Positions 2,589-53,527 of a stretch of 64,000 bases of DNA are shown here, piece after piece (the first letter of the stretch is position 1; each line of letters opens with the position of its first letter). Source of the stretch: Bacillus nitratireducens (GTDB lineage Bacteria; Bacillota; Bacilli; Bacillales; Bacillaceae_G). The stretch lies in assembly GCF_001884135.1 (NCBI RefSeq), contig NZ_MAOC01000091.1, positions 310,001-374,000 of the forward strand, written 5' to 3'. A model generated the notes under the pieces. That model did no database searches, was not told where the DNA came from, and saw only the letters and a list, made by a program, of their open reading frames with translations. A program made the translations under genes and the position numbers.

Positions 2589-2724
2589 TCCTAATTATAA
2601 AATATCCTTTTATACAAAACAATCGAACTTTATGTGAACAAGCAGGGCTCTATTAAAATATGTTGCGCTTTTGTGTTACACAATCCATACTAATTATTAT
2701 AACTTATAAAGGTGGTGCAATAGA

Positions 2725-6369: not shown

Positions 6370-6380
6370 CTATTTCAACA

Positions 6381-7371: not shown

Positions 7372-7890
7372 ATGAACGTCTCTTTACTTACACCTACTAC
7401 TGATTTACAAGAAGAATACTTAGATTTTTATACCGAATGGAAAGATAGCGGTGAAACGATGATTCCATGGGTTATTTCAAAAAATCCTTCTAATTTCACG
7501 GCAATGATTCAAGAATTACACGACGCACATAACGGAATAAATATTCCTGAAACTTGGGTACCAGATTCTACTTATTGGCTCGTGACAGATGAAAATAGAG
7601 TTGTAGGAGTTGTTAATATACGTCATAGTTTAACTGATCATCTATTTAACGCTGGTGGTCATATCGGTTATGGTATTCGTCCTTCTGAAAGAAGAAAAGG
7701 TTATGCTACGAAATTACTAGAGTTATCACTAGAAAAAACGAAAGAATTAAACATCACGAAAGCACTTGTCGTTTGCGACGAAGTGAATACTGCTTCAGAG
7801 AAAACGATTTTACATAACGGCGGTCTCCGTGATGATGATTTTACTGAAGAAAATGGTAATGTTGTAAGAAGGTATTGGATTGAGCTATAA
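7372..7890 (+). CDS. GNAT family N-acetyltransferase
   Basis: The 172-residue protein carries the GNAT core: substrate-strand region YWLVTDENRVVGVVNIRHSL, then the acetyl-CoA binding loop IRPSERRKGYATKLLELSLE near residues 103-122 (R-x-x-G-x-A), and the C-terminal VVCDEVNTASEKTILHNGG. It resembles the YjcK/predicted acetyltransferase COG3981 group. The acceptor is unknown. AAAAGGAG precedes the ATG. A candidate cre site upstream suggests carbon control. The gene ends in a terminator that abuts a bcr1 repeat. Confidence 0.85.
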   Translation: MNVSLLTPTTDLQEEYLDFYTEWKDSGETMIPWVISKNPSNFTAMIQELHDAHNGINIPETWVPDSTYWLVTDENRVVGVVNIRHSLTDHLFNAGGHIGYGIRPSERRKGYATKLLELSLEKTKELNITKALVVCDEVNTASEKTILHNGGLRDDDFTEENGNVVRRYWIEL

Positions 7891-21200: not shown

Positions 21201-24200
21201 TCATTTAATATGACTTCATTATCTGGAATTTCTGTAATCGTCACTCGGAACGTTACCTCAATACTTCCACCATTAATTAATAATGGAGTAACTGTAAATC
21301 CTATTTCTGGATTTAAACCAAGTTGCTGCACCCCACCTATCGTTACACTATCTTCTACAAATGTCGTTCCTTCTGGTATGACATCTTGGAAGAACACATC
21401 TGTAACAGGTATAATTCCTACGTTTGAAATTAGCACGGTATACGTTAATACATCCCCAACCGCTCCAGTTGCAACGTCAACTGTTTTGATTGCTGTTACT
21501 TCACCAGGAGGAGGTAACGGTATCGTAACTACTGTCGTATTACTTGAATTTGTCGTTGTTACAGGGGGCTGTAAAGGATTTAATAAAAAAGTGGCTGTAG
21601 CAGATGCCGTGTTTAGTACGGCTCCGCGCGTGGATGGCGCAACTACTGTTACTTGGAACGTTACAGTCAATGATGTTCCAGCAGCGATATTAGGAAGCGT
21701 AAAACCTATATTTGGATCAAATCCAGGTTGAGGCGTTCCATTTATCGTTACACTATTTGTTACAAATGTTGTTTCTGAAGCAATTGGATCAATGAAGGAA
21801 ACATTCGTCGCTGTTACCGTTCCATTATTTCTAATGACAACAGAATACGTGTAAGTTTCTCCAAGTACAGCTTGTTGTACAGATGAAGATTTTTGTATAT
21901 TTAACTGTGCTGTGTTTACTTGCGTCACGACGAAATTGCTATTCGTAACAGTTGTTATTGGAGGATTTGCTGGGTTTATAAGAAAACTTGCAGTAACGTT
22001 CGATTGATTTCTTATATTCCCTCCACTTGGAACACTCGTCACTGTAACTTGCAACGTAATTGTAGCAGTTTGCCCGACTGGAATATTTGGTACTGGAAAA
22101 CCTGTCATAGGATTCGCGCCTTGCTGAACGACTCCATTTATCGTTACGCTATTCGCAACAAACGTTGTTCCAACAGGAATCGGATCTTGAAAAATAATAT
22201 TTGTTGCAGGAACAGTTCCTGTATTTTGAATGCGAATTGTATACGTTAACGTATCTCCTACTCCTGCTTGTGGTGTATTTACACTCTTCATTACATTAAG
22301 TGATCCTATATTCACTCGCGTCACAACAATATTACTAATCGTTACAATTGTAATTGGTGGCTGCAAAGGACTTACTTGAAAATCAGCAGTCACATTCGCA
22401 TTATTCGGAAGAACTCTATTTGGTGGTACACTCGTGATCGTCACCTGAAAAGCAACTGTTACCATCCCTCCTACTGGAATATTGGCAAGCGGAAATCCAG
22501 TCGTTGGGTTTAAACCTGGCTGCGGTGTTCCGTTTATGGTTACACTATTTGCTACAAACGTTGTTCCAGATGGAATAGGATCGAGGAATGATACATTTGT
22601 TGCTGCTACTGTTCCACTATTTTGTATACGAACTGTATACGTTAACGTATCTCCTACACCTGCTTCAGTAGCGCTTACACTTTTCATTACATTTAGCCCT
22701 GAAGAATTCACAACTGTCATAACAGTATTACTTGGTACTGTTACAGTAATTGGTGGCTCTGTTGGATTTACAAGGAAATCTCCAGTTACATTCGCATTAT
22801 TTACGACATTATTTCCTTGGGGAATTTCATCAATTAATACTTCAAACGACACAATTACACTCGCACCAGTAGGCAAATTATTTAGCGGGAATCCAAGTTC
22901 TGGATCTGCCCCTTCTTGTAAAACACCATTAACCAATACACTATTTTCAATAAATAAAGTCCCTTGCGGAATTGAATCTTGGAAAAACACATTTGTAGCT
23001 GGTACACTACCCGCATTAATTATTTCGATTGTATATACTAAAACATCCCCTACCGTTGCAACATCCGTATTGACTGATTTCACAACCTCAAAATTCCCTG
23101 ATTGTACAGTTGTATTAACAATGTTACTAGGAACATTAATTGTTACTGGTGGTTCACTCGGATTCACTTGAAAACTTGCTGTTACATTTGCTTGATTTAA
23201 AATATCTTCATTTGGCGGATCCTGCTCAATTAATACTTCAAATGTAACTAAAACTGTCTGAGCCGCAGGGATATTCGGAAGAGAAAATCCTGAATTTGGA
23301 TTTAGTCCACTTTGTGGTGTTCCATTAATTGTTACAGAGTTTGCAACGAAAGAAACCGCTGAAGAAGTAGTGTCTTGGAAAAATACATTTGTTAACGGAA
23401 CGTTACCTGTATTTTGGACGGCAATCGTGTATGTTAAAGTATCACCTACTGCCGCTTGAGCTGTATTTACTTCTTTTATTACATTTAAACCACCTGTATT
23501 AACTTGTGTTACAACGGTATTCGTTTGCCTATTAATCGTTACTGGCGGTTGATTCGGAATAACGACGAAATTAGCAGATACATTACCGCGATTCGCAATC
23601 GTACCTCCTGATGGGGTAGATGTCACTCGTACTTGAAAAGTCACCGTTCTACTTCCACTTGGAGATATATTCGCTACTGTAAACCCAGTCGCAGGATTTG
23701 CTCCAGGCTGTGAAACCCCATCTACAGTCACACTATTTGGAATAAAAGTCGTTCCAGTTGGGATCGGATCTTGAAAAATAACATTTGTCGCAAGTACATT
23801 TCCTGTATTTTCAATTGTAACGGTGTACGTAAGAACGTCATTCACTGTCGCAAAAGCTCTATCCACTGTTTTTCTCGTTCTTATATCAGCTATATTAATA
23901 GTAGTAAATACAGTATTACTTGTCGCTTGACCTGAAATTGGTTGTTGGCCAGGCACTGGAGTAAAGTTAAATGTTACACTTGCACGGTTCGGTATTGGAT
24001 TGACAAGAGGGTTCGATGTCACTCGAACTTGAAAGCGCACTACAGTCGTTTGCGAAGCATTAATACTTCCAAGATTAATACTACTTGATGGATTCGCTCC
24101 TGGACGCGCTACTCCATTTACCGTAACACTATTTGGAACAAATGTTGTTCCTGCAGGGATACTATCAACAAAAATAACATTGTTTGCAGCAACATTCCCA

Positions 24201-36147: not shown

Positions 36148-36182
36148 AAAAATAAACCGAGAGCTACTCTCGGTTTATTTTT
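36148..36182. terminator. Bidirectional terminator
   Basis: AAATAAACCGAGAG/CTCTCGGTTTATTT arms with loop CTA, ending both the YfhD-like gene and, on the other strand, the cyclase gene. Confidence 0.9.
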
Positions 36183-38028
36183 TATATTTTTTTATATAAT
36201 GTGCCAAAGCGAGCAACGGATATATATGTCCGTAACTATGATACCGAATATAAAAGCCACCCGGTAACCCTGTACCAGTAGGATATTTTTCATTCATAGT
36301 AGGCTGCGCGAGCAAATATGAAATTCCTTTTCGAATAATTGGTGTTTCTTGATCATAGTAAGAAATGAGTGCATCAAGCGCCCACGCTGTTTGTGACGGT
36401 GTACTAAAGGGTAACGAAACAAATTTTTTCTCCTCACTACTTTGACATGATTCTCCCCAGCCTCCATCTGTGTGCTGTACATGTTCAAGCCATAAAGCTG
36501 CTTTTTTCACCGACGGATGAGTAGAAGGTACTCCTAATGCAAGTAGACCTGTCATCGCTGCCCATGTACCGTATATATAGCATATCCCCCATTTCCCATA
36601 CCATGATCCATTCAGTTCCTGTACATCCATTAACCATTTGACTGCTTTCTTTTTTTGCTCTTCAGGCAATTCATTCGGTGCGAATGTGCCGAAAAATTCT
36701 AACACCCTACCTGTAATATCTGGTGTGGACGGATCAGTTATCATATCACTCGCATTCTCAATCGGTAAATTCGCTAATATACGGCTCGTTACCCCCCGTT
36801 CGAAAGCTCCCCAGCCTCCATCATTGTTTTGCAATCCTTTTAACCACTCCACACCTCTTTCCCACGCACTATCTACTCTGCTACTCCCTCTACTTCGCGC
36901 TAACGCTCTAAGAGCAGCTGTTGTATCGTCTACATCAGGGATTGTCGTATTCACATCTGAAAATCCCCAGCCGCCAGCCATAATTGATGGTGCATGTACG
37001 CTCCAATCCATTCTCTTAGTTTGTTGTCTTTGTAGTAAATATTCCGTTGCCTTTTGAATCATCTTATTTTCTTTCATTACATTAGCTTCTTGCAATGAAT
37101 AGCTAAGTAAAGCGGTATCCCATACGGTAGAAGGAGAATTTTGCAAATGACTTCCTCTGTCCATCTTCCATATATAAGATTTTAATCCTATCACAGCTTT
37201 CTCAATAATTGGAGACTGAATAGAGTGCCCTAATGCAAGCAAAGCATAAATCATATAAAACGTAGCACTCGCGTAACTATATAATGTTCCATTTTCATCT
37301 ATACGTTCTCCTATAAAGCGCTCCACTTCTTCGTATCCTTTATGATGTAAAGAAAGTGGATAAGCTATTACCTTTTTCACATCACCTACAAACGATTGAA
37401 ACAACGGAGACCGCTCCTCCCGAAACCATTGTCCACCTTCGCCTGCAATATGATTTAAATTTGGCAATAACTTTTTTTCTACACGGAATCTCTTATTCAT
37501 ACAAATCATCATCGGAATTAAATGTATACGGGCTGAGCTACTTAACTCAAATATACTGAGCGGGGAGTCATCTTGTAAAAATAAGATTGGCGTTGGAAAG
37601 TGAAAAAGCGTAGGAAATTCATATTCTCCATGAATCGCTAATAAAAATTTCGTCATAAAATGAGCACGAGAAACTCCCCCGTGTTCCTTAATAAACATTT
37701 CAGCTCGCCTCATATTTATATCTTCCTTCGAATATTTTTCCGAAGCAAGTAAAGCAGCATATGCTTGAATCGTCGCGGATAAATTCCCTCCATTTTCATC
37801 TTCGTATAATTTCCAAGTCCCTTCATTTGTTTGAAGAGACGCTAACCTTTTCACGAACGGCTCTATTTCGTCATTTCGTCCTAATAATTTGAGTAAAAAA
37901 ATCATGTGACAATCCGTTAGCAATGCTCCTTCAAAACAAAATGACCACGTTCCGTCTTGCCTTTGCATCGTTTGAAGTGCAGTCGTTCTCCGCTCTATCT
38001 CCTCACGCACTTTGTCATATAGTAGCAC
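36175..38028 (-). CDS. Squalene-hopene / sporulenol cyclase family protein
   Basis: 617 residues from the GTG 9 bases after AAAGGGTGG; a GTG three codons earlier is possible. It is a class II terpene cyclase with the catalytic DxDD motif as DVDD near residue 364 and several QW repeats (MQRQDGTWSF, LQNNDGGWGAF, VQELNGSWYGKWG, VQHTDGGWGE). In B. subtilis the homologue SqhC cyclises tetraprenyl-beta-curcumene to sporulenes in spores; in other bacteria it makes hopanoids. The shorter length fits the Bacillus SqhC type. No squalene synthase is adjacent, so the true substrate must come from elsewhere. Confidence 0.9.
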   Translation of the reverse strand: MLLYDKVREEIERRTTALQTMQRQDGTWSFCFEGALLTDCHMIFLLKLLGRNDEIEPFVKRLASLQTNEGTWKLYEDENGGNLSATIQAYAALLASEKYSKEDINMRRAEMFIKEHGGVSRAHFMTKFLLAIHGEYEFPTLFHFPTPILFLQDDSPLSIFELSSSARIHLIPMMICMNKRFRVEKKLLPNLNHIAGEGGQWFREERSPLFQSFVGDVKKVIAYPLSLHHKGYEEVERFIGERIDENGTLYSYASATFYMIYALLALGHSIQSPIIEKAVIGLKSYIWKMDRGSHLQNSPSTVWDTALLSYSLQEANVMKENKMIQKATEYLLQRQQTKRMDWSVHAPSIMAGGWGFSDVNTTIPDVDDTTAALRALARSRGSSRVDSAWERGVEWLKGLQNNDGGWGAFERGVTSRILANLPIENASDMITDPSTPDITGRVLEFFGTFAPNELPEEQKKKAVKWLMDVQELNGSWYGKWGICYIYGTWAAMTGLLALGVPSTHPSVKKAALWLEHVQHTDGGWGESCQSSEEKKFVSLPFSTPSQTAWALDALISYYDQETPIIRKGISYLLAQPTMNEKYPTGTGLPGGFYIRYHSYGHIYPLLALAHYIKKYKK

Positions 38029-38098
38029 ACCGCTCACCCACCCTTTCTAAGTCCGTATACGATATTCGAAAAGCTAGCTAAATATGTATGAAAACAAA

Positions 38099-39969: not shown

Positions 39970-40006
39970 GAAAAAACCACGCAGGCGAGTAGCCTGCATG
40001 GTTTTA
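39970..40006 (-). terminator. Terminator of the VWA/tubulin-like operon
   Basis: AAAACCACGCAGGC/GCCTGCATGGTTTT arms with one mismatch, loop GAGTA. It ends the transcript right after the 44-residue peptide gene. Confidence 0.88.
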
Positions 40007-40138
40007 TACTTCAGTCTCATGATTTTCTTGTTCTTTTTGTTCTTCCATTTGTTGCTCTGCAATCTCCGCTGAAATCATTCCATAATAAATTTCTGGATAT
40101 AATCCAAATATTTGATATACACTCCCTAAAAACGGCAT
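40004..40138 (-). CDS. 44-residue peptide, third gene of the tubulin-like operon
   Basis: A small frame starts at ATG 40138 with GAGGGA 6 bases before it. The sequence starts MPFLGSVYQIFGLYPEIYYG (amphipathic, aromatic-rich) and then becomes a Glu/Gln-rich coiled tail, IAEQQMEEQKEQ. It follows the tubulin-like gene by 57 bases and precedes the terminator, so it is very likely in the same operon. An amphipathic N-terminus plus acidic tail would suit a membrane adaptor or an inhibitor peptide for the filament protein. That role is my inference; I know no family. Confidence 0.6.
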   Translation of the reverse strand: MPFLGSVYQIFGLYPEIYYGMISAEIAEQQMEEQKEQENHETEV

Positions 40139-40195
40139 CGGAATCCCTCTTTTCTAAAGTTGTATTGCCATTCTTAAGGATTCCCTTTTCGCTCA

Positions 40196-43100
40196 TTATA
40201 CATTCGTTTTTGGTGCTTCTTCTTCATCGTGAACATGTAATACATTTTGCCATTTTTTATAAGGTGCACTATTTGGATCTACATACCCTTTCGCATACGA
40301 ACGATCCCACAATTGCTTAATAAACATCTCTTTTTCTTTCTTCGCAACCATATCCGCGCCTGTTCCGTAGTAATTTTGGAAATACAACTCAATTTCATCA
40401 AGGAATAATCTTAACAACTCGTCGGATGTTTCTTCTAACGTCGGGTCATATTTCGCCTCACGGTCATACATTAAAATCATATCTAAAATATTATGGACAT
40501 GCTCTTTACGAAGCCATCTAATATCTTGAGCACCTAATACAAATGGATGTGTATATAAATGTCCACCTTGTATCATCGCTTTGTCTTGTTCTTCTTCAAA
40601 CCTGGACAAGATGTTTTCATAAATGAACGGATTATGAAGCAACGCTCTGTGCAACTTATAACTTTCGCTTGAAATATTTTTTCCCATCGACTGGATTAAA
40701 AAACTACGGCCGACACCATTATATTGATACACGAATTGTCCATCCACAGCAACTAAACTAATCCAGCGGTACATATACGCGTATAGAAGAGCACGATTAC
40801 ATTTATCGTAATCTAACTTCGTTTGCGTTGCATTCAAGTCTGGCATAAAGGCTGGCAAATGCCAATATTTATCTAAATGCGGCGTCAAACTAGATTTTTT
40901 ACTATTTAATTTGTTCACGCGGCGATAATACGATTGGAAGTAATCACCTTTATCATTCATAAAACCATTTGAAATATGCCCAGATGAAAGCTTAGGAAAA
41001 TCTTGTAGCGATAATCCGTAATGAGCACGATAACAAATCACTTCAAATGGTGAAAACGCCTCGTTTACCGTATCTTTTTCTTTGAACATTTCTTGCAATA
41101 ACTCTTCTTGCAATTCTTGTTTTAAAGATGGATGTACGCCCCAATATTGTAATTCCCTATGATGAGAAACTTTCGGAACGAACGGACTTGCTAAATGGAA
41201 AAGATCTTCAATTTTTTCACGAACGTATTCATCACGATCACGCTTCTTGAAATCTGCTTCTTTTCGCAATGCTTCAACGATATTAAGCTCTAATTTGTCA
41301 CGATAGCGTACTTGAAGTTCGTCATAACAATAACTCAATATATGTTCACGATAGAAGTCTTCAACCTTTTTCGACTGAATTTCTTCGGCTTTCGCATCAC
41401 GACAATATTCCCCGTACAAGCTCATATAAATTTCTGCTGATATATCTTTCGGTAATACACCTAAATTTAAATGTTGCTGCATATCTTGCCAAATCTTTTC
41501 TTGTAATTTCTCTTCAGCTAATACGTATACATTCGTCGGGTTCGTTTTCCCCTCAAATTCTTTGCTTCGCTTTTGAATTTCAAACAATAAATTTTCACGT
41601 GTTTCGTGTAAGTTATCAAAAAACCTTTCCCAATATTGAATCATTTTATCAACTGCTTGGTATAGCGATTGATACACGAGTTCTAACAACATCTCTTTAC
41701 GATACTCACTTAATTTGTGTACGTACTGCGTTACAATATCTTCAAATTCTTTTTTAAACAAACGCTGCTGATTATTAATCATTTTTCCAAACCAGCCTTG
41801 TTGCTGCGCAATTTCTACTCGGCGAACAGCTGTTACCGTTCCATCAATATTACTCACATTAAATTTCTTATCGTAATTTTGAATTAAATTACGCTTTTGT
41901 TCATTATTTTCATGTAGTCGATTCATCTTCTCTACTAACTGCTTTCGGATTTCATACAGCATAAAACGCGCTGCAACGGGATGGACAGGATCCGTTTTCT
42001 TTAAAAACCATGTATTTAATTGATAAGACTGTCCTTCTGAGCCACTCGGTGTAAAGCGATCTGATTCGATCATGTCATATAAAAGGGTAGTTACATGTTC
42101 ATGTACACGGCTCGGAATCGCATACGCATATAAACGAACCGCATGATCAACTCTCGCTACTTCACCTTTCATTTGTTCCATTATTTTAAGTTTCGCAGCC
42201 GATATTTTGCACTCATGCTGCAGGCGGTTTAATTCTTCATCTTTTTGCACTGTACGGTGTACATAGCTTTCAACAGCCTCTAAAAACAACTTAGACTTTG
42301 CGACACCGACCTTACCGCCCTCTGCTCCTTCACGCGTTTCATTGAACATTTGTCTATAAAAAATATGAGCCTGCTCTGGACGAGTAGCAAGATGCTCTAA
42401 ATCTTCTAAATAACTTTTCCCGCGTTCTGGCTTTTCACGCTGCATACCACGTTTGACATCTTGGTCGTATCTTTGCTTCTTTTCTTGAAACAGTTGATCT
42501 AAATGAAGCCAAGATTCATCTAAACCTTGAACCGCCCATTTTAAAGCACAATATTTCAAAACGTGCTCATACGGATAAATAAGTTTTGCCGTTCCTGCTC
42601 CGCAATATCTACCTTTCCCGCTCGATTCTGCCAATTGCTGAATTTGATTATCTTCTTGTGCAAAATGATTTGCAGACATTGGACTAAATAACTGTAAATG
42701 AATTGTATTTGCCATTTGCTCCATATAATCTGATAAGTTGTGCAAATGGTGCCCATGTAAATTTTCATAATCATATAAGAAGCAATAATTGTACGGTAAA
42801 TGATGCTGCTTTATCGTATGATTCGTTCTTCCATCTTCATCCACTTGATCAGGACGATATTCTAATTCAATCGTGACGCCGCCTCGTTTTGATAATTCAC
42901 CGGTAGAGCCGAGTGTAATAGCATGTAATTCTTTTAACGAGGCATAGCCGTTTGCTTGCACCGTTTCAAACTCTTTTGCACTAACCGTTCTCGTCTTCAC
43001 TAAAACATCTGGCATTAAAAACGCACCGCGAATTAAAATGTTGTGATGCTGCAATTTTTTCCGAAGCATTTCACGCAAATATAATGCGATTTGTAAAAAC

Positions 43101-43558
43101 ATCCCTGAACCTGTTCCGCCCGCTAGTGATGTTACGATAATGACACGCACTCCATATTCCGTTTGATCGCTTGTAACCGGAAAAATCTTCTCGATTTCTT
43201 GCCAAAAGGATGTCAATTTATCTTCTTTCATCGCAGCACGTAACGCTAAACGGGAAATGACGCGTAACTGTCCTGCCCCTTCTGTCAGTGGTTTATCAAG
43301 TATAGTCGGGTCCATCGGAAACCACTCCGGAATTGTTGGATCTCCCGCAATATACTCTCTTGGCGTTTTACTCGAACTTGTTTGCGTCTTAAACTTCCGA
43401 ATATGATCAAATTTACTCAATGTATTCACATCTGTATCAAATACGTGCATTGCTACCTTTTTTCGGCGCTCCTCAGGTAGCCTTTCATATATTTGATGTG
43501 TCACAGTACTACCGATTCCACCTAAACCAATTAATATCGTTGGAACTTGTAACGTCAT
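40196..43558 (-). CDS. Tubulin/FtsZ-superfamily protein (Tubulin_2-like), 1120 residues
   Basis: Start at ATG after GGAAGGTGGTTCAC. The N-terminal 300 residues have the tubulin/FtsZ nucleotide fold: glycine-rich first strand TILIGLGGIGSTVTHQIYE (about 7-25) and the tubulin signature loop as VTSLAGGTGSGMFLQIALY near 145-165 (compare GGGTGSG), with FMPDV-like and NGYASLKELH segments after it. The remaining 800 residues are mostly helical, with charged coiled-coil stretches (about 390-620) and no membrane segment. This size is far above FtsZ (about 380). It lies 73 bases after a membrane-anchored VWA protein. I recognise it as the tubulin-like domain group; polymerisation is expected but unproven. 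Confidence 0.82.
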   Translation of the reverse strand: MTLQVPTILIGLGGIGSTVTHQIYERLPEERRKKVAMHVFDTDVNTLSKFDHIRKFKTQTSSSKTPREYIAGDPTIPEWFPMDPTILDKPLTEGAGQLRVISRLALRAAMKEDKLTSFWQEIEKIFPVTSDQTEYGVRVIIVTSLAGGTGSGMFLQIALYLREMLRKKLQHHNILIRGAFLMPDVLVKTRTVSAKEFETVQANGYASLKELHAITLGSTGELSKRGGVTIELEYRPDQVDEDGRTNHTIKQHHLPYNYCFLYDYENLHGHHLHNLSDYMEQMANTIHLQLFSPMSANHFAQEDNQIQQLAESSGKGRYCGAGTAKLIYPYEHVLKYCALKWAVQGLDESWLHLDQLFQEKKQRYDQDVKRGMQREKPERGKSYLEDLEHLATRPEQAHIFYRQMFNETREGAEGGKVGVAKSKLFLEAVESYVHRTVQKDEELNRLQHECKISAAKLKIMEQMKGEVARVDHAVRLYAYAIPSRVHEHVTTLLYDMIESDRFTPSGSEGQSYQLNTWFLKKTDPVHPVAARFMLYEIRKQLVEKMNRLHENNEQKRNLIQNYDKKFNVSNIDGTVTAVRRVEIAQQQGWFGKMINNQQRLFKKEFEDIVTQYVHKLSEYRKEMLLELVYQSLYQAVDKMIQYWERFFDNLHETRENLLFEIQKRSKEFEGKTNPTNVYVLAEEKLQEKIWQDMQQHLNLGVLPKDISAEIYMSLYGEYCRDAKAEEIQSKKVEDFYREHILSYCYDELQVRYRDKLELNIVEALRKEADFKKRDRDEYVREKIEDLFHLASPFVPKVSHHRELQYWGVHPSLKQELQEELLQEMFKEKDTVNEAFSPFEVICYRAHYGLSLQDFPKLSSGHISNGFMNDKGDYFQSYYRRVNKLNSKKSSLTPHLDKYWHLPAFMPDLNATQTKLDYDKCNRALLYAYMYRWISLVAVDGQFVYQYNGVGRSFLIQSMGKNISSESYKLHRALLHNPFIYENILSRFEEEQDKAMIQGGHLYTHPFVLGAQDIRWLRKEHVHNILDMILMYDREAKYDPTLEETSDELLRLFLDEIELYFQNYYGTGADMVAKKEKEMFIKQLWDRSYAKGYVDPNSAPYKKWQNVLHVHDEEEAPKTNV

Positions 43559-43631
43559 GTGAACCACCTTCCTATTCTTGCTTGTTTGAAAAAGGAGGAG
43601 AAAGCTAAAATTCCCCTCTTTTCCCTATCTC

Positions 43632-45728
43632 CTATTCACACTCGTACCTGTAAATCTCTTTACCGTATCCTCTATCAATTACTAAAAGTTCATTTGGATA
43701 TAGTGTCTTATGTTCCATTCCAACCTCATCCTCTGTTATAAACATTCCATCAATAATCATCCCAACTACTTGTGACTCTTTCGCTACAAATATAGATTTC
43801 GATCCATTTTTCGCTATTAATGTTACAGATTGCACCGTCTTTCTTTCTGCTCGGAATGGAATACCAAAATAGTGCTTCCACCATTTATTTTTAAGTAACT
43901 CTGGTTCGGATTGATAAAGCCAATCTTTCGCTACCTCTTGATCCCATTCATAATATAATAATGCTTTTCGGTGAAATCTCGGACGAACAATCCATCCTAA
44001 GATAATAATTCCTACTACTAAAAGTAATAAAGTGATAGGAATTACAAATTTAAAAATGAGCGCATATTTCTCAAAAAATGGTGCATTTTCTATGTGAAGT
44101 ACAATCTTTTCCTTTACTTTTTGTAATTTTGAATCATTAATCGTGATGGTAGCTTCTACGGTGCCTGTATCTGTAAAATTGAATGTGTCGGAGTAATAAG
44201 GTCGAGGATAAACGTAAATTTGATTATCATGTTGTTTTACTTCATAGTTGATTGATTGATTGGATGTGACACCAGTAGATTTTAATAGTTTCTTTACAGC
44301 CTCTTCTGTCATCGGTTTACCATCTAACTGCGGCTGTAAAATAAATGGTTTACTATTTTCCAAATTCGTTACCTTTTCTTCGTAACCTTTTGTAACAGTT
44401 TGAAGTGTTAATTTCGGTTTTATGGATGTATCAATTTTGAATTCTTTCGTCTGCCTATAAAATCCCTTTATGTTCATATGAACTTTTCCGCGTACTAACT
44501 CTTTGCCAACTTTTGTCTCATAATAAAACACATGTCTTTTATCATCCCACTTCATCGGATACTGCTTTCCGTCTATTTCTACTTCTGCTTCAAAATAAGA
44601 AATTTGAATTGGAAGCTCCGTAGGTTTTGCTTCAATAACAGCCGTTACTCCTTCGTACATTTTCTCAACATTTTTTCTATCTTTATCATCTTTGTCATAC
44701 GTAGAAACAGTATAATTAAGCGCTGGTTCAACAAGTACTTGTAACCCTTCGTTCTCCATATCTTGATCCACTTCTATCGTATATGTTCCTGGCTTAATCA
44801 CTTCCTGATTCGCTGTACTCACATGTACTATATTTCCGAATAATTTAGCTTCTCCTGGTGCATGTATGGAAAAAGAAGACTGCACTTGTAACGGTTTAGA
44901 AATTTGCATAACTTTATAATTAGACAAAGACGATGATTGTCGTACAAGCGTCATACGCTTTAATGGGAACGGCGTTGTAATTTCTATTTTTTTCCCTACT
45001 ATTTTCGTTTTGACAATTGTTTCAACCGAGGAGAATGGGTCACGATTGGCAACTAATGCTGCCACTTGATTTACACTTTTTACAATGCCATCCTCACCAC
45101 TAGATGGCATCGTAACACCATTTATCTCTTTCTTCCATATTTCTTTAAACGTATTTAGCTGTTCTTTTTCTTGCTGCCCTAAATCCTCTTCCATCGTGAT
45201 TAAGACTGGATGTAAAGAGATCTTTTTCGAATCCATTTCTTTCTTAAACTGCGCTAACTTCTGTGTAATTTGTTCTTTTCCACCAATCTTATCTTTCTCC
45301 AAATCATTAAATGCCCCGTCAGTTAATACAATAAGCCAAAATTCACGTTTCCCATCTATATCTGCTTCCTTTTTTATAGATTGCATCGCCGTTTCTACTG
45401 CGCTAAATGGAGTATTTAAATATGTTTTCCACGCCCCAATCCCCTCAATTTCTGTTTGCCTTTGATCCTTTGTTAATGAAATGTTTAATGGAGCATTCGG
45501 CTTGCTCATTGGAACGTAAGAAAATTTATCTTTCTCATCTAATAGCGCAACTAAACTTTGCAAGGCGTAATTGGCATACTTCCAGCGATCGTTATTTCTC
45601 ATGCTGCCCGAATCATCATATACAAGTGAAACGACCCTTTCCTTTGCCTCCTCTCCTTTTGCAAAAACTGAAAAAGGTAAACATATAAATAGAAACAGCA
45701 TGAACGTGGCACAAATTCGAATTTTCAT
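43632..45728 (-). CDS. Membrane-anchored VWA-domain protein
   Basis: The 698-residue form starts MKIRICATFMLFLFICLPFS (signal peptide, cleaved near Ala23), with AAAGGTGG upstream. A von Willebrand A domain follows (about 30-220) with an intact metal site: D38-x-S40-x-S42 in YDDSGSM and LTDG near 125. Next come beta-rich extracellular segments, one transmembrane helix near 556-581 (IPITLLLLVVGIIILGW) and a cytoplasmic tail of about 115 residues. It therefore spans from outside to cytoplasm and heads the operon with the tubulin-like protein. It probably anchors or senses for the filament system. Confidence 0.82.
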   Translation of the reverse strand: MKIRICATFMLFLFICLPFSVFAKGEEAKERVVSLVYDDSGSMRNNDRWKYANYALQSLVALLDEKDKFSYVPMSKPNAPLNISLTKDQRQTEIEGIGAWKTYLNTPFSAVETAMQSIKKEADIDGKREFWLIVLTDGAFNDLEKDKIGGKEQITQKLAQFKKEMDSKKISLHPVLITMEEDLGQQEKEQLNTFKEIWKKEINGVTMPSSGEDGIVKSVNQVAALVANRDPFSSVETIVKTKIVGKKIEITTPFPLKRMTLVRQSSSLSNYKVMQISKPLQVQSSFSIHAPGEAKLFGNIVHVSTANQEVIKPGTYTIEVDQDMENEGLQVLVEPALNYTVSTYDKDDKDRKNVEKMYEGVTAVIEAKPTELPIQISYFEAEVEIDGKQYPMKWDDKRHVFYYETKVGKELVRGKVHMNIKGFYRQTKEFKIDTSIKPKLTLQTVTKGYEEKVTNLENSKPFILQPQLDGKPMTEEAVKKLLKSTGVTSNQSINYEVKQHDNQIYVYPRPYYSDTFNFTDTGTVEATITINDSKLQKVKEKIVLHIENAPFFEKYALIFKFVIPITLLLLVVGIIILGWIVRPRFHRKALLYYEWDQEVAKDWLYQSEPELLKNKWWKHYFGIPFRAERKTVQSVTLIAKNGSKSIFVAKESQVVGMIIDGMFITEDEVGMEHKTLYPNELLVIDRGYGKEIYRYECE

Positions 45729-45966
45729 GATGAGGCTTCGCCACCTTTGTAGACAAATTCCTATGTTTAAATTTATGAGAGGAAACAAGATATATGACTT
45801 GTATTTTAGGACAACAGTTCACAACGAGTACATTATGTAAATAAAAATGAACTACTCCCATATTTTATTTCTAGTTTTTTCCTTATTATATATCTGAAAT
45901 AACACATAGCTTTCATACTTTTCCCGCTATAAATTCCACCACTAAAGTTTGATTTTCTTTTCAATA

Positions 45967-47718: not shown

Positions 47719-49413
47719 TTACTTATCTTCAGAAATATATGCCCATTTGTAGCTGTAATCTCCACCAACTGGATGGTGAATAATACCTTTTACTTTCGCT
47801 CTTTGAACAAGAGCATCGCCACGTTGATATAATGGTGCAATTACAGCATCATCAAGTAACATTTTCTCAGCTTTCAGTAAGCTATCCCAACGCTCTTTCG
47901 TTTTCGTTAATAGCTCGCCTTTACCTTTTTCTACAATTTCATCATATTTCGGATTTGAATATCCAGTTTGGTTATGAGGTCCATTTGTAACGAACATATC
48001 AATGAATGTCATTGGATCTAAGTAATCAGGTCCCCAACCAGCGTAAGATAAATCATAATCTAGATCTGATTCTAATTTTAATTTTTGTTTAAACGGTTGG
48101 TTTTTCAAATTCACTGTTAAGCCCGGTAAGTTCTTCTCAAGCTCTCCTTTTAAGAACTCACCTACTTTTTTCGCATTATCGCTATCGTAGTTTAATAGCT
48201 CTACAGTTACTTGCTCTTTTCCAAGTTCTTTTTTCGCTTTTTCCCAATGCTCTTTTGCTTTTTTCACATCTGTTTTTAAAATATCTCCGTTATCTTTACG
48301 GAAGTCTTTTCCATCTGGACTCTTCGCAAATTCTTTTGGTACTAAGTAATCTGCAGGTGTAGATCCGTCATTTAAAATTACATTCGTTAAGCCTTTTTTA
48401 TCATATGCCATTGCAATCGCTAGACGTAAATCTTTACTCTTTAACACTGTATCTTGATTAACACGTTTTTGGTTTAATCGTAAGAAGAACGTTGACGGTG
48501 TTTTTTGTGTAAAGAAATCTGGATTTGATTTATATTTATCAACCATTTCAGATGCAAGTGCTGCACGATCGATTTGTCCACTTTCATATAAGTTTACACG
48601 TGTACCGCTATCTTTTACTACGTTAAAGTTGATTTCTTCTAACTTAACTGTTTTATTATCCCAGTATTGTGCATTTTTCTTTAACTTCCAACCTTCTTCA
48701 TGTTTCCAGTCTGTTAATGTAAATGGTCCGTTGTATAACGTTGTATCTGATTCTAAACCGTATTTTTCTCCTTTTTCTTTTACGAATTTTTCATTTAACG
48801 GATAGAATGTTCCGAATGAAGTTAATTCTACAAAGTAAGGAACTGGATTTTCTAATTCTACTTCTAACGTGTAGTCATCTACAGCTTTTACACCTAACGT
48901 ATCAAGTGGTGCTTTTCCATCATTAATTGCTTTTGCGTTCTTTAAATCAAACATAATGTATGCATATTCAGCTGCTGTATTTTTATCTACCGCACGTTTC
49001 CAAGCAAACACGAAATCTTTCGCTGTTACAGGGTCTCCATTTGACCATTTCGCATTTTTATTTAATGTGAATGTATATTTTTTACCATCATCACTCTTTT
49101 TATATGATTCAGCAACCCCTGGTGCTGCTTTATTATCTTTATCAAGTCGATATAAACCTTCCATTACGTTGTTTAAAGCAAGAAACGATACTTGGTCTGT
49201 TGCTTTTGAAGAATCCATAGATGGAATCTCTTGGCTCTCCGTTAAATTAAGTACTTGCTTTGCAGCTAATTTTCCGCCTTCTTTTTCGCCACTTTTCGGC
49301 GTTGTGCTTGCCTTATCTTTATCCCCTGATCCCGAGCAAGCTGTTAATGCCATACTCATTACTAGAACTGGTGCTACAACCGCTGTTAATTTTGTCATCT
49401 TTTTTCTCTTCAT
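47719..49413 (-). CDS. oppA: Oligopeptide-binding lipoprotein (OppA), paralogue 1
   Basis: The 564-residue extracellular solute-binding protein of family 5 has a lipoprotein signal with lipobox ALTAC (Cys26), then the SBP_bac_5 core: NNVMEGLYRLD near 85, AKWSNGDPVTAKDFVFAWKR near 122 and QTGYSNPKYDEIVEKGKGE near 482. It captures peptides outside the cell for an Opp permease that is not encoded here. It is the most divergent of three tandem paralogues. GGGGAGGG precedes ATG. Own promoter at 49504-49531. Confidence 0.93.
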   Translation of the reverse strand: MKRKKMTKLTAVVAPVLVMSMALTACSGSGDKDKASTTPKSGEKEGGKLAAKQVLNLTESQEIPSMDSSKATDQVSFLALNNVMEGLYRLDKDNKAAPGVAESYKKSDDGKKYTFTLNKNAKWSNGDPVTAKDFVFAWKRAVDKNTAAEYAYIMFDLKNAKAINDGKAPLDTLGVKAVDDYTLEVELENPVPYFVELTSFGTFYPLNEKFVKEKGEKYGLESDTTLYNGPFTLTDWKHEEGWKLKKNAQYWDNKTVKLEEINFNVVKDSGTRVNLYESGQIDRAALASEMVDKYKSNPDFFTQKTPSTFFLRLNQKRVNQDTVLKSKDLRLAIAMAYDKKGLTNVILNDGSTPADYLVPKEFAKSPDGKDFRKDNGDILKTDVKKAKEHWEKAKKELGKEQVTVELLNYDSDNAKKVGEFLKGELEKNLPGLTVNLKNQPFKQKLKLESDLDYDLSYAGWGPDYLDPMTFIDMFVTNGPHNQTGYSNPKYDEIVEKGKGELLTKTKERWDSLLKAEKMLLDDAVIAPLYQRGDALVQRAKVKGIIHHPVGGDYSYKWAYISEDK

Positions 49414-49503
49414 TTTTTTGTACCCTCCCCAATTATATGTACGATATTAACATTTAGAGATTCTCTATTAACTTTCGTTATCAGAAAATTCTTATTAATT
49501 AAT

Positions 49504-49531
49504 ATTCTACTATTTTTTTGAGTTTTGTAAA
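49504..49531 (-). promoter_or_regulatory. Promoter of oppA paralogue 1
   Basis: Minus strand TTTACA, 16 bases, TAGAAT. Identical -35 and -10 hexamers with the same spacer length occur before paralogues 2 and 3. Confidence 0.75.
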
Positions 49532-49783
49532 GTAGTTTTGTAAATTTTCTAAATATTTATTTTTTTATGATAGTAACTTGTTATTTTACTATTACTACTA
49601 TATGAATTATCCCCCATCTACTATATGTAAACATACCTCCTCTTATTCTTCTCTATCGCTAAGTTCTATATTTTTCTTATAAAAATGATATCACTAGCTG
49701 TCTTATTGAATCCCTTCTACTATTCCTACAGTCAAACTTTAAAAGTGGCCTCAAAATTCCCATGTGCTTATTCTCCTATTCAT

Positions 49784-49827
49784 AAAAAAAGCATTTCAAA
49801 AGCATATTAGCCACTTTTGAAATGCTT
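49784..49827 (-). terminator. Terminator after oppA paralogue 2
   Basis: GCATTTCAAAAG/CTTTTGAAATGC arms with seven A before them on the plus strand. Confidence 0.88.
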
Positions 49828-49832
49828 TCATA

Positions 49833-51548
49833 TTATTTCTTGCCGCCATCCTCAGTTACATACGCCCACTTAAAGCTATATTCTGGACTAATGTTGTGTT
49901 TCACAATTCCTTTGACATTCGATTTCATTACATATGCTCTTCCTGTTTGATATAAAGGAACTAATCCTGCATCTTCTTCAAGGAATAATTTTTCTGCTTT
50001 TCCTAACGTTTCCCAACGTTTCTTCGGATCAGACAATAATTCATTACCTGCTTTTTGTACCATTTCATCATATTTCGGATTTGAATAACTCATTTGGTTA
50101 TATGGGCTCTTCGATTCAAACATATCAATAAATGTCATTGGATCCGAATAATCTGGGCTCCAACCTGCAAACGAAACTTCATAATCTTGCGCTGACTCTA
50201 ATTTTAATTTTTGTTTGAATGGCTGAATTTTCGTGGTAACTGTTACACCTTTTAAATTTTTCTCAATTTGATCTTTAAAGTAATCAGCAATCTTTTTCGC
50301 AGTTCCATCATCATAGCTTAGTAATTCAATTGTAACTTGATCTTTTCCAAGTTCTTTTTTCGCTTCTTCCCAAGCTGCTGCGCCTTTTTTCGTATCATAT
50401 TTTAGACCATTTTTAAATGTATCTTGATAATCTTTACCATCCGGCCCTGTCGCAAGCCCTTTTGGAACCAATTGATCCGTTGCTTTTGATCCATTATTTA
50501 ATATAACGTTTGCTAAACCTTTTTTATCAATTGATAATGCGATTGCTTCACGAAGTTTTTTGCTCTTTAACGGTGTATCTTGTCCGTTACGCTTTTGATT
50601 TAAACGTAAGAAGTACGTACTTGCTTCTGAATACTCACCATATTCATCTTTGTTCGATTTATATTTATCTACAAATTCTCCTGATAATAATGTAAAGTCA
50701 ATCGATCCTGTATCATATAAATTTACTTTTGTAGCCACTTCTTTTACAACGCTGTAATTAATTTCTTCTAATTTCACAGTCTTATTATCCCAATATTTAT
50801 CATTTTTCTTCAGCTGCCAACCTTGTTCATGTTTCCACGATGCCATTACAAATGGCCCGTTATACAATGTTGTATCTGCTTCTAAACCAAACTTCTCTCC
50901 TTTTTCTTTTACGAACTTTTCATTTAAAGGATAATATGACGGGAATGCTAATAGATTTAAGAAGTACGGTACCGGTTTTTCTAATTCTACTTCTAGTGTA
51001 TAATCATCTACCGCCTTCGCTCCTAATTCAGTTCCAGGTTTTTCTCCTTTATTAATCGCTTCTGCATTTTTAATATAGTAAGCAATAAATGCATATTCTG
51101 CAGCTGTGTTTTTATCAAGTAAGCGCTGCCATCCAAACACGAAATCTTTTGCTGTTACAGGATCTCCATTTGACCATTTCGCATCTTTACGCAGTTTAAA
51201 CGTATATTTTTTGCCATCTTCGCTTTTCGTACTAGATTCCGCAGCAGCCGGAATAGGCTTATTATTTTTATCAAGACGGTATAACCCTTCCATCGTGTTC
51301 CCTAAAATTTGTGCCCCTAATGTATCAGTAGATTTAGAAGTGTCCATCGTCGGAATCTCTTGGTTTTCCGTACGATTTAATACTTGCTTCGCTGCATATT
51401 TAATATCAGATTTTTTTTCTTCCCCACTATTAGATGTAGTAGTCGTTTTCTTTTCCCCACCTGACCCAGAGCATGCTGTCAATGCAACGCTCATTGCTAA
51501 AACTGGTACTACAACCGCTGTTAACTTTTTCATCTTTTTTCTCTTCAT
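49833..51548 (-). CDS. oppA: Oligopeptide-binding lipoprotein (OppA), paralogue 2
   Basis: Start at MKRKKMKKLTAVVVP, behind AGGGAGGGTATAAA, 571 residues; the longer frame is upstream leader. The lipobox is ALTAC and the SBP_bac_5 core is as in the neighbours (MEGLYRLDKNN, AKWSNGDPVTAKDFVFGWQR, QMSYSNPKYDEMVQKAG). It is closer to paralogue 3 than to paralogue 1: the KPIPAAAESSTKSEDGKKYT stretch is identical in both. It lacks any permease gene nearby, so it must share one encoded elsewhere. Own promoter and terminator. Confidence 0.93.
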   Translation of the reverse strand: MKRKKMKKLTAVVVPVLAMSVALTACSGSGGEKKTTTTSNSGEEKKSDIKYAAKQVLNRTENQEIPTMDTSKSTDTLGAQILGNTMEGLYRLDKNNKPIPAAAESSTKSEDGKKYTFKLRKDAKWSNGDPVTAKDFVFGWQRLLDKNTAAEYAFIAYYIKNAEAINKGEKPGTELGAKAVDDYTLEVELEKPVPYFLNLLAFPSYYPLNEKFVKEKGEKFGLEADTTLYNGPFVMASWKHEQGWQLKKNDKYWDNKTVKLEEINYSVVKEVATKVNLYDTGSIDFTLLSGEFVDKYKSNKDEYGEYSEASTYFLRLNQKRNGQDTPLKSKKLREAIALSIDKKGLANVILNNGSKATDQLVPKGLATGPDGKDYQDTFKNGLKYDTKKGAAAWEEAKKELGKDQVTIELLSYDDGTAKKIADYFKDQIEKNLKGVTVTTKIQPFKQKLKLESAQDYEVSFAGWSPDYSDPMTFIDMFESKSPYNQMSYSNPKYDEMVQKAGNELLSDPKKRWETLGKAEKLFLEEDAGLVPLYQTGRAYVMKSNVKGIVKHNISPEYSFKWAYVTEDGGKK

Positions 51549-51638
51549 TTTTATACCCTCCCTAATTATATGTACATTACCAACCCTTGAGAGACCCCTT
51601 GTCAATGATTTACTTTTCAGAAAATTATAACTAATGTT

Positions 51639-51666
51639 ATTCTACTCTTTTTTTCGCGTTTGTAAA
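51639..51666 (-). promoter_or_regulatory. Promoter of oppA paralogue 2
   Basis: Minus strand TTTACA-16-TAGAAT, same hexamers and spacing as before paralogues 1 and 3, with flanking bases GAG before the -10. Confidence 0.75.
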
Positions 51667-51776
51667 TAGTTTTATTTTAAATATTCTGATTTTAATCTTC
51701 ATAAATTAGTATGATTTATCCCCCATCTACTATATGTACGTACTATACGCCTTATTCTTCTCTATTTAACTGAATT

Positions 51777-51821
51777 AAAAAAAGCATTTCAAAGTAGCTA
51801 AGCTACTTTAAAATGCTTTTT
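51777..51821 (-). terminator. Terminator after oppA paralogue 3
   Basis: Long hairpin AAAGCATTTCAAAGTAGCT/AGCTACTTTAAAATGCTTT with one mismatch; similar in sequence to the paralogue 2 terminator. Confidence 0.88.
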
Positions 51822-51829
51822 TAACTCTA

Positions 51830-53527
51830 TTATTTTTCAGTCACGTATGCCCACTTAAAGCTAAATTCTGGGCTGATATTATGTTTTACTACACCTTTTA
51901 CATTTGGTTGTAAAACATAAGAATCTCCACGTTGATATAAAGGTACAATCGCTACATCTTCTTCAAGTAATGTTTTTTCAGCTTTTCCTAACTCTTCCCA
52001 ACGTTTTTTCGCATCACCCATTAATTCAGTACCGGCTTTTTTCACCATGCCGTCATATTTAGGGTCAGAGAAGCTCATTTGGTTATGAGAATGTCCAGTC
52101 TCAAACATATCTAAGAACGTCATTGGATCTGCATAATCTGGATTCCATCCGCCATACGAAATATCATATTGTTGCTCAGATTCTAATTTTAGTTTTTGCT
52201 TAAATGGTTGAAGTTTAATGTTAACTGTTACACCTTTTAAGTTCTTCTCAATTTGGTCCTTAATATATTCTCCAACTTTTTTCGCATTACCAGTATCGTA
52301 GTTTAAGAATTCAATTGTAACTTGATCTTTACCAAGCTCTTTTTTCGCTTCTTCCCAAGCTGCTGCAGCTTTTTTAGCATCTGGCTTCAAACCATTTTTA
52401 AACGTTTCTTGGAAGTCTTTACCGTCCGGTCCAGTTGCTAAACCTTTTGGTACTAAGAAGTCAGCTTCTTTTGATCCATCATTTAAAATTACATTTGCTA
52501 GATTTTTCTTATCGATAGAAAGTGCAATTGCTTCACGTAATTTTTTGCTCTTTAATGGTGTATCTTGTCCATCACGTTTTTGGTTCATACGAATGAAGTA
52601 CGTACTTACTTGTGAAAATGTTCCAAATTCATCTTTCTTATTTCTGTATTTATCTACGAACTCTCCAGTTAATAAAGCAAAGTCAACTTGACCGCTATCA
52701 TATAAATTGATAAGAGTTGCTGGTTCTTTAACAACACTGAAGTTAACTTCTTCAAGTTTTACAGTCTTTTTATCCCAATATTGATCATTTTTCTTTAATT
52801 GCCATCCTTGTTCATGCTTCCAATCTTTAAGAACGAACGGTCCATTATAAACTGTTGTATCAGACTCTATACCGAACTTCTCCCCTTTTTCTTTTACGAA
52901 TTTTTCATTTAATGGGTAGTACGATGGGAATGCTACTAAGTTTAAGAAGTACGGTACCGCTTGCTCTAATTCAACTTCAAGCGTAAGATCATCTACCGCT
53001 TTCACTCCTAATTCAGCTACAGGTTTTTCACCTTTATTAACCACTTCTGCATTTTTAATTGGGAATGCGATAAATGCATACTCAGCAGCTGTTTTTGGAT
53101 CTAATAGACGTTGCCAAGCATATACGAAATCTTTCGCCGTTACTGGATCTCCATTTGACCATTTTGCATCTTTACGTAGTTTAAATGTATATTTTTTACC
53201 ATCTTCACTTTTCGTGCTAGATTCTGCTGCAGCTGGAATAGGCTTATTATCTTTATCCAGACGATATAATCCTTCCATCGTATTCCCGAGCATTTGTGAA
53301 GATACTGTATCTGTTGATTTAGAAGAATCCATCGTTGGAATCTCTTGGTTTACTGTTCGATTTAAAACTTGTTTTGCTGCTAATTTTTCCCCTGACTTGC
53401 TATCTCCACTTGAGTTTGTGCTTGTCTTTTTATCTCCGCCTGATGTAGAACATGCTGTTAGTGCCATGCTCATTGCTAAAACCGGTACTACAACTGCTGT
53501 TAGTTTTTTCATTTTTTTCTTTTTCAT
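51830..53527 (-). CDS. oppA: Oligopeptide-binding lipoprotein (OppA), paralogue 3
   Basis: The 565-residue protein has lipobox ALTAC and the family 5 core (NTMEGLYRLDKDN, AKWSNGDPVTAKDFVYAWQR, QMSFSDPKYDGMVKKAGTE). Strong similarity over the full length to paralogue 2 points to a recent tandem duplication. Differences are spread through the chain, including the ligand-facing end region, so peptide preference could differ. AGGGAGGG precedes ATG; own promoter and terminator. Confidence 0.93.
   Translation of the reverse strand: MKKKKMKKLTAVVVPVLAMSMALTACSTSGGDKKTSTNSSGDSKSGEKLAAKQVLNRTVNQEIPTMDSSKSTDTVSSQMLGNTMEGLYRLDKDNKPIPAAAESSTKSEDGKKYTFKLRKDAKWSNGDPVTAKDFVYAWQRLLDPKTAAEYAFIAFPIKNAEVVNKGEKPVAELGVKAVDDLTLEVELEQAVPYFLNLVAFPSYYPLNEKFVKEKGEKFGIESDTTVYNGPFVLKDWKHEQGWQLKKNDQYWDKKTVKLEEVNFSVVKEPATLINLYDSGQVDFALLTGEFVDKYRNKKDEFGTFSQVSTYFIRMNQKRDGQDTPLKSKKLREAIALSIDKKNLANVILNDGSKEADFLVPKGLATGPDGKDFQETFKNGLKPDAKKAAAAWEEAKKELGKDQVTIEFLNYDTGNAKKVGEYIKDQIEKNLKGVTVNIKLQPFKQKLKLESEQQYDISYGGWNPDYADPMTFLDMFETGHSHNQMSFSDPKYDGMVKKAGTELMGDAKKRWEELGKAEKTLLEEDVAIVPLYQRGDSYVLQPNVKGVVKHNISPEFSFKWAYVTEK

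Follow-up and report, generated by a model that had tools for sequence, protein, structure and literature searches.

The analysed window, a stretch of 64,000 nucleotides from Bacillus nitratireducens (contig NZ_MAOC01000091.1), carries a chromosomal FtsZl1-vWA module in which the gene for a VWA membrane protein is followed by the gene for a large tubulin-like protein. We propose, with a probability of about 0.4, that the two act together, the VWA protein as a sensor in the membrane and the tubulin-like protein as a GTPase coupled to it in the cytoplasm, and that they are expressed in the mother cell during sporulation. At the sequence level, the locus displays the gene pair with its domains and topology signals, a complete MIDAS, T1 and T4 loops, and a promoter-like element shared with close relatives; coupling through the tail of the VWA protein and a role in sporulation may follow from these features. 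The three same-strand open reading frames described in an earlier sequence-only reading are all present, with gaps of 73 and 57 bases and a hairpin at the end, and the features of the locus, in positions of the window, are as follows.

45770..45797, minus strand: sigma-E-like promoter TCATATA-N13-CATAAATT, an element found in 6/6 close loci
45741..45748, minus strand: ribosome-binding site AAAGGTGG upstream of the VWA start, identical in six close loci
43632..45728, minus strand: VWA gene, 698 aa
45603..45617, minus strand: MIDAS motif DxSxS (D38-S40-S42) of the VWA protein
43986..44063, minus strand: predicted transmembrane helix, VWA residues 556-581, from hydropathy and a model helix
43635..43985, minus strand: predicted cytoplasmic tail, VWA residues 582-698
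40196..43558, minus strand: tubulin-like FtsZl1/Tubulin_2 gene, 1120 aa, with PF13809 matching residues 8-345
43508..43528, minus strand: T1-like loop GLGGIGS, tubulin-like residues 11-17
43103..43120, minus strand: T4 tubulin signature GGTGSG, tubulin-like residues 147-152
40004..40138, minus strand: small ORF, 44 aa, a stub corresponding to the N-terminus of a family of small proteins of ~100 aa
39973..40005, minus strand: terminator-like hairpin, 14 pairs with a T-rich tail

An upstream GTG is an alternative start of the tubulin-like gene and would extend its product to 1123 aa.

The relatives of this operon in Bacilli fall into three architectures. The first (type Ia), represented by the window, consists of the VWA-tubulin pair alone, and being the simplest architecture found it makes biochemistry feasible. 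In the second (type Ib) the pair is accompanied by membrane proteins of ~720 aa and ~1280 aa, the larger one with an HExxH motif. The third (type II) is the DO-GTPase/GAP1 operon already described by Kaur et al. (2020, PMC7159879), which combines a DO-GTPase and GAP1 with tubulin-like and VWA genes, two of each kind (Pfam on locus L072), the second tubulin-like gene keeping only part of the profile. In 13/14 type I loci the gene immediately upstream of the tubulin gene encodes a homologous VWA partner, and the 14th has a fragment of it. A partner is also found upstream in 28/29 type II loci, at one of which a short called ORF intervenes; the 29th received no score for a partner, and L075, where the ORF caller chose an antisense ORF, was left out of the counts. 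The type II partner family is homologous to that of type I (hhalign 96.4%), its members being assigned by clustering, with Pfam applied to those of L072 only. Pfam VWA matched the partners of the window and of L072 and gave no match for those of L069 or L070, which were assigned by homology and the MIDAS. Genomes with the genes apart, which the sequence-only reading had named as evidence against an operon of three, were not found for the two main genes, while the small third gene comes and goes. Strong tubulin matches occur in 14/397 genomes of the order, a patchy distribution, and the EamA and DUF212 neighbours seen in the window recur as families beside the operon in 4/5 close relatives.

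The assignment of the second gene to the tubulin superfamily had been based on a GGTGSG loop, which is present, and the suggested Pfam check returned PF13809 (Tubulin_2) well above its curated cut-off (E=1.7e-79, 268.1 bits against 27). This loop (T4) is invariant in 42/42 sequences and aligns with T4 of FtsZ; G11, G13, G14 and G16 of the T1-like loop are invariant in the same 42, as is D303, which lies inside EDNQI in 14/14 type I proteins. When a profile of the 42 N-terminal sequences was compared with the PDB, 34 distinct sequences were recovered at E<=10 (best E=0.013), 33 of them named FtsZ or tubulin/FtsZ GTPase, and its hhalign alignment to E. coli FtsZ spans T1 to T4 (E=7.7e-05, probability 61.7%); a global hhalign run against FtsZ gave no alignment, and PF00091 reached 28.3 bits, under its cut-off of 33. 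Like FtsZ, the protein thus has, by sequence, the T1 and T4 loops of the tubulin GTP-binding core. Unlike FtsZ, it is three times longer, has no Pfam match to the FtsZ C-terminal domain beyond its N-terminal core and shows no recognisable T7 loop, the PDB-match stretches and the hhalign alignment both stopping by T4/H4. The remainder beyond the PF13809 region is mostly helical in a low-confidence structure model (pLDDT 37), which was built from a 3-sequence alignment of the window protein with those of Ectobacillus funiculus (L001) and Bacillus sp. 165 (L002). We infer that the protein would bind GTP and that it may polymerise.

The VWA protein is predicted to run from a signal peptide through an extracytoplasmic VWA domain (~31-228) and an Ig-like beta region (~229-550) to one transmembrane helix and a tail, the signal peptide and helix being called from hydropathy and the structure model only. 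These calls support the topology attributed to the first gene, including its cytoplasmic tail, and the MIDAS said to be complete was confirmed by alignment, D38, S40 and S42 together with T106 and D137 being invariant in 13/13 aligned type I VWA partners. The best VWA match in the suggested Pfam search was VWA_2, barely over its cut-off (4e-06, 27.9 bits against 27). The structure model (pLDDT 70) found VWA-type and Ig/cadherin-type entries among its PDB matches (4fx5 at 5.5e-10), mostly with low whole-chain TM-scores, its tail part being too uncertain for use. Among the five closest relatives the tail is the best-conserved segment, with a mean identity of 61%, compared with 56% for the VWA domain and 42% for the Ig-like region; in type Ib its identity is 25% and it is not conserved.

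The FtsZl1-vWA pairing is already known, having been predicted in 2010 (Makarova and Koonin, PMC2875224), and a reviewer in that paper names B. thuringiensis BT9727_3336 among the vWA partner proteins. Of the two families in that account, FtsZl1 alone is associated with vWA genes, so the prediction cited in the sequence-only reading for both families holds for the first one. The window proteins resemble the FtsZl1 family as it is described there, with an N-terminal GTP core with T4, a length of ~1000-1130 aa, a long remainder in which the T7 and C-terminal regions of FtsZ are not recognisable, and a neighbouring vWA gene that often has a signal peptide or transmembrane segment and a mostly intact MIDAS. 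A coiled-coil middle part of some length and a C-terminal domain of helices further characterise the family, for which the window protein offers the mostly helical model of low confidence. Unlike the FtsZl1 operons in the same text, that of the window has no kinase, OmpA or GTPase gene. It is also like the GAP1-N2 GTPase-centred systems of Kaur et al. (2020, PMC7159879), whose tubulin-domain proteins have C-terminal coiled coils, in that tubulin-domain and vWA membrane proteins are encoded in one operon; it differs from them by having neither DO-GTPase nor GAP1, and a single tubulin and a single VWA gene. No experimental study of FtsZl1 proteins was recognised in the literature searched. What is new here is the survey of three architectures, the identification of the 44-aa ORF as a stub and the sigma-E-like element; neither the stub gene nor the element figures in the available text of PMC2875224.

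The small third ORF had been taken for an amphipathic peptide, which its product is not clearly: the N-terminus is hydrophobic and the C-terminus acidic, with a net charge of -8 and a highest hydrophobic moment of 0.38. Its first 18 residues are 61% identical to 100-aa proteins encoded at the same place of the operon in L058 and L059, and its first 15 residues are 66.7% identical to the protein of L002. The ~100-aa protein is intact beside the operon in these 3/5 close relatives; only a C-terminal relic is left at L001, the family was not seen beside the L060 operon, and searches of the genomes of L001 and L060 (G001 and G004) gave no match to it. The family occurs in 76/299 genomes of the order, 7 of which are among the 14 strongly tubulin-positive ones. 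As the family is intact, a relic or absent across close loci, we rejected the 44-aa peptide as a core third partner, and, being the stub of a protein that is intact in only 3/5 close relatives, it is by its sequence a dispensable remnant.

Upstream of the VWA gene we found an element resembling what we take to be the sigma-E consensus. In 6/6 close loci it scores at least 12 of 15 on this consensus, against 1/64 other genes there (Fisher 5e-08; 5e-07 when the near-identical pair L058/L059 is counted once), p-values that are only descriptive since the scoring was defined after the element had been seen, and the six related genomes are not independent. Within the otherwise diverged upstream DNA of the close loci the element forms a conserved island. 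A candidate SpoIIID-like site follows the promoter. Its 13-base gap is also found before yabP in 4/5 and before spoIID in 3/5 of the same genomes, and a spacing of 12 +/- 1 between the 8- and 10-base elements of sigma-E promoters is given in a figure legend of PMC517825. Taken alone, the window site is expected by chance, 5 sites scoring at least 13 in the 64 kb on both strands against ~4.9 expected. Known sigma-E genes score below the operon on the same scale: among the two best sites listed per control region (n=20), only those of yabP in L134 and spoIVA in L116 reach 12 at a 13-base gap, while spoIID scores 10-11 and yabP otherwise 11; a TCATAA-type site of spoIVA has a 15-base gap in 4/5 genomes, and the spoIIIAA upstream regions have no site in 5/5. 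The element is absent upstream of type Ib operons (0/7), and 7/28 type II loci reach the threshold, L064 being excluded from these promoter counts for its fragmentary VWA gene. A strict genome-wide pattern gave no enrichment in genome G005 (5 sites against 4 for a reversed control); two of the 5 have an ORF of >60 aa within 260 nt, namely the FtsZl1 operon and one other gene. The main text of a B. anthracis Tn-seq sporulation paper contains none of the terms 'tubulin', 'vWA' and 'von Willebrand'. The shared element points to sporulation, and we infer from it that sigma-E may control the window-type operon. Candidate Spo0A boxes before type Ib operons (9/9 in L070, 8/9 in L065) were dropped, shuffled sequences reaching 8/9 in 362 of 2000 cases.

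In the mechanism that we propose, the one-pass VWA protein would carry Ig-like repeats on the outer face of the membrane, and on these a ligand-binding domain that depends on metal; through its cytoplasmic tail the state of the ligand or of the membrane would be coupled to the tubulin-like GTPase within the cell. With its tubulin core and long, mostly helical body, this GTPase may then assemble or switch at the membrane and thereby reshape it or arrange proteins on it. Transcription of the operon in this lineage would start from a sigma-E-type promoter in the mother cell during sporulation, so that the likeliest site of action would be the membrane engulfing or surrounding the forespore, or else the envelope assembled upon that membrane. 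The more specific proposal that endospore formation involves a second, overlooked machine of the tubulin superfamily, encoded by this locus as a sigma-E-controlled and sensor-coupled FtsZl1 GTPase that the mother cell would use at the forespore membrane for engulfment or envelope assembly, is put forward as a rather doubtful extension. If true, it would have been overlooked by sporulation research because B. subtilis lacks FtsZl1: this genome, one of 14 controls, has no PF13809 match, though SpoIVA matches, so the operon could not have come to light in the principal model of sporulation. FtsZl1 proteins occur widely in bacteria and archaea, and if the developmental promoter is real, it would define under which condition, in which cell and at what time they can be studied, sporulation being a standard assay.

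The sequence-only reading had also raised defence. In such a membrane-associated conflict system, which we consider unlikely, the VWA and tubulin proteins would detect invaders and arrange an effector on the membrane, in line with the sensing/effector idea for GAP1-N2 GTPase-centred operons with tubulins and vWA (Kaur et al. 2020, PMC7159879). The type II operons carry that very set of genes, the large HExxH membrane protein that ends type Ib operons could be an effector, the distribution in the order is patchy, and the DO-GTPase of L072 has a weak PADLOC match (NsnC, 0.0011). However, the three window proteins match no PADLOC model up to E=1, which leaves defence without direct support, while the FtsZl1/vWA assignment and the sensor-plus-tubulin part of that reading fit the sequence tests. 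Neither DO-GTPase nor GAP1 was found in the window operon, beside it or among the matches listed for 39 further ORFs of the window in Pfam scans, three of which had a reporting limit of 1e-8 or 1e-10. Besides, three scans of viral_contigs gave no relative, a plasmid DNA search gave no match, and a protein search of plasmids yielded 7 records with 23-32% identity (E 2e-59 to 1e-5); a mobile or viral origin was rejected. The recurrence of the EamA and DUF212 neighbours is likewise unlike a defence island, and the upstream element of type Ia looks developmental. A 'phage' record (MT836542, unverified, from human faeces) in which a VWA gene and an incomplete tubulin gene are arranged as in the window, the tubulin being 26% identical, agrees with the pairing and is probably a piece of bacterial DNA.

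Deinobacterium chartae, Corynebacterium glutamicum and Methanosarcina acetivorans are PF13809-positive among the 14 control genomes, and to our knowledge they form no endospores. This favours a general membrane-remodelling or vesicle system of growing cells, as proposed by Makarova and Koonin and unrelated to sporulation, and so do the hydrophobic or signal-like segments in many partner proteins, present also in the available text of PMC2875224. We rate it as less probable again, given that the element upstream of window-type operons resembles sigma-E promoters and that SpoIVA is matched in 57/61 strongly positive genomes of a class sample (no match in 4/61) against 212/337 others, a difference confounded by ancestry.

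The least likely of the alternatives makes the tubulin-like protein a non-polymerising scaffold or switch under the control of GTP, which would relay the signal of the VWA protein to its partners, in keeping with an FtsZ match confined to T1 and T4, with the filament-forming T7 and C-terminal regions unrecognisable, and with the partial second tubulin-like gene of type II operons, but the invariant D303 could, by inference, be a divergent T7 acid. The partners of such a scaffold would be the HExxH membrane protein in type Ib, DO-GTPase and GAP1 in type II, and some further protein in the window type.

The operon occupies 40004-45728 and comprises the following features, all minus-strand.

First of three genes, minus: VWA gene, 698 aa
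Second of three genes, minus: tubulin-like gene, 1120 aa
Third of three genes, minus: ORF of 44 aa
Operon end, minus: terminator-like hairpin, 14-pair

The sequence-only reading had described three same-strand genes with short gaps and one terminator, and this arrangement was confirmed: the genes are separated by 73 and 57 bases, and the hairpin closes the operon. Both suspected families were recovered with Pfam, the second protein matching Tubulin_2 (PF13809) with 268 bits against a cut-off of 27, and the first matching VWA_2 barely over its cut-off. The topology proposed for the VWA protein is also supported: hydropathy and modelling give a signal-peptide-like start, a single transmembrane helix (~556-581) and then a predicted cytoplasmic tail. 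Its MIDAS metal site, noted as intact, is complete: D38, S40, S42, T106 and D137 are invariant in 13/13 aligned type I partners, the proteins encoded directly upstream of the tubulin-like gene. When searched against PDB sequences, the VWA protein gave four matches, all unrelated (0.22-0.65), and the single tubulin-like protein gave none up to E=1.

The window operon belongs to the FtsZl1-vWA type that Makarova & Koonin described in 2010 (PMC2875224). In that paper FtsZl1 proteins resemble FtsZ at the N-terminus, are coiled-coil in the middle and become helical towards the end; their genes lie next to a vWA gene in most predicted operons, and a role in membrane remodelling is predicted. The cereus-group pair was probably already in their table, because a reviewer's comment names, among the vWA partners, the B. 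thuringiensis signal-peptide protein BT9727_3336. Elsewhere, a section of Kaur et al. 2020 (PMC7159879) places Firmicutes tubulin and vWA genes in GAP1-N2 GTPase-centred systems with suggested conflict roles, and a 2023 study of how FtsZ and tubulin evolved (PMC9871819) treats Tubulin_2 proteins as a separate, divergent FtsZ-like set. In the literature searched, we recognised no experimental work on the FtsZl1/Tubulin_2 family.

Across 42 N-terminal tubulin-like sequences, 39 columns are invariant, including glycines 11, 13, 14 and 16 of T1, residues 147-152 of T4 (both loops of the tubulin/FtsZ GTP-binding core), N266 and D303. The corresponding profile retrieved 34 PDB matches at E<=10 (best 0.013), 33 of them named FtsZ or tubulin/FtsZ GTPase, with the best stretches around T1 or T4; local hhalign against E. 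coli FtsZ stops after T4 (probability 61.7%). At the level of sequence, these results support a GTP core but not the polymerisation elements.

PF13809 was detected in 22/397 genomes of the order sample (14 strong, E below 1e-60) and 67/398 of the class sample (61 strong, E below 1e-70). Wider regions of 40 loci, together with L001 (Ectobacillus funiculus), L002 (Bacillus sp. 165) and the window, displayed three architectures.

Operon architectures in Bacilli
Type Ia: VWA-tubulin; window, L001, L002, L058-L060
Type Ib: VWA-tubulin, then ~720-aa protein, then ~1280-aa protein; L063-L070
Type II: typically VWA-tubulin-partial tubulin-VWA-small protein-DO-GTPase-GAP1; 29 loci, one uncounted

The type II order, annotated with Pfam in L072 only, is the arrangement of Kaur et al. 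2020, and hhalign (98.6%) relates type I to type II tubulins across roughly three quarters of their length, counted from the N-terminus. In type II loci a second tubulin-like gene directly follows the full one, as at L072:11986-14325, whose product matches the Tubulin_2 profile in its C-terminal part only (225-353, E=0.0011). The pair also occurs, with the FtsZl1 gene partial and placed after the VWA gene, at 2678-7865 of MT836542. This human-faecal record, labelled 'unverified bacteriophage', is probably a bacterial fragment.

Neither additional type Ib protein exceeds any Pfam cut-off or matches the other operon families compared by hhalign. The ~720-aa protein has two hydrophobic segments (one in L069). 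The ~1280-aa membrane protein, encoded by the second gene after the tubulin gene (L069:872-4711 and counterparts in L063-L068 and L070), has 5-6 N-terminal hydrophobic segments, conserved Cys residues and a C-terminal HExxH...W-Q...EG-A-W-E motif, with HExxH in 8/8 loci. It has sub-threshold matches to one putative metallopeptidase family (0.021 and 0.13), and it may serve type Ib operons as a zinc peptidase effector. In L064 the VWA, ~720-aa and ~1280-aa genes appear fragmented.

The 44-aa ORF is a dispensable stub and not a core component. Its residues 1-18 align with the N-terminus of a protein of ~100 aa encoded at the corresponding position in L058 and L059, only the first 15 align with that of L002, and the remainder differs. 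L001 retains only a C-terminal relic; beside it, in place of the decayed gene, the opposite strand carries a repetitive, collagen-like ORF rich in Gly and Pro (L001:13816-14475). No copy was seen in L060.

We propose that the VWA protein would act as an outside sensor, its tail coupling it to the tubulin-like GTPase inside, at the membrane. In the five closest relatives the tail is the best conserved segment (61% mean identity to the window, with the VWA domain at 56% and the Ig-like region at 42%), whereas in type Ib it is not (25%, 39% and 23%, respectively), suggesting that the coupling may be lineage-specific.

The mother cell would be the likeliest site of action because of a sigma-E-like promoter element, TCATAT(A/C)-N13-CATA, common to the six type Ia loci 68-92 bases upstream of the VWA start in otherwise diverged DNA. 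Using a score (maximum 15, threshold 12) built on a sigma-E consensus and chosen after the element had been seen, the threshold was reached by 6/6 type Ia VWA upstream regions versus 1/64 other genes of the same loci, by 7/28 versus 2/246 in type II, and by 0/7 versus 2/61 in type Ib. According to a published paper (PMC517825), the two sigma-E elements, of 8 and 10 bases, stand 12 +/- 1 bases apart, and spoIID and yabPQ belong to the sigma-E genes. Among known sigma-E genes, examined in five of the genomes, the 13-base gap precedes yabP (4/5) and spoIID (3/5), is absent from spoIVA in 4/5, and no site was found for spoIIIAA in 5/5; the majority of these genes score <12, and the score is therefore a poor general detector of such promoters. 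The window site alone is chance-expected at its score, and a strict genome-wide pattern in one genome (G005) showed no enrichment over the reversed control. SpoIVA is present in 57/61 strongly PF13809-positive class genomes versus 212/337 others, a co-occurrence that ancestry could explain. No SpoIVA match was obtained in four genomes whose type II tubulin match is strong (G444, G646, G686 and G725; loci L091, L087, L088 and L090).

Elsewhere on the minus strand, the window carries a collagenase-like peptidase of family M9 that also has PKD and PPC domains (3261-6311), a 2490-aa ORF of DUF11-type repeats with 13 matched stretches (18230-25702) and three consecutive family-5 solute-binding protein genes (47719-53527). 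A few genes further downstream than the operon is a squalene-hopene cyclase gene (36175-38037), and L002 and L058 have ORFs of about its length near their operons.
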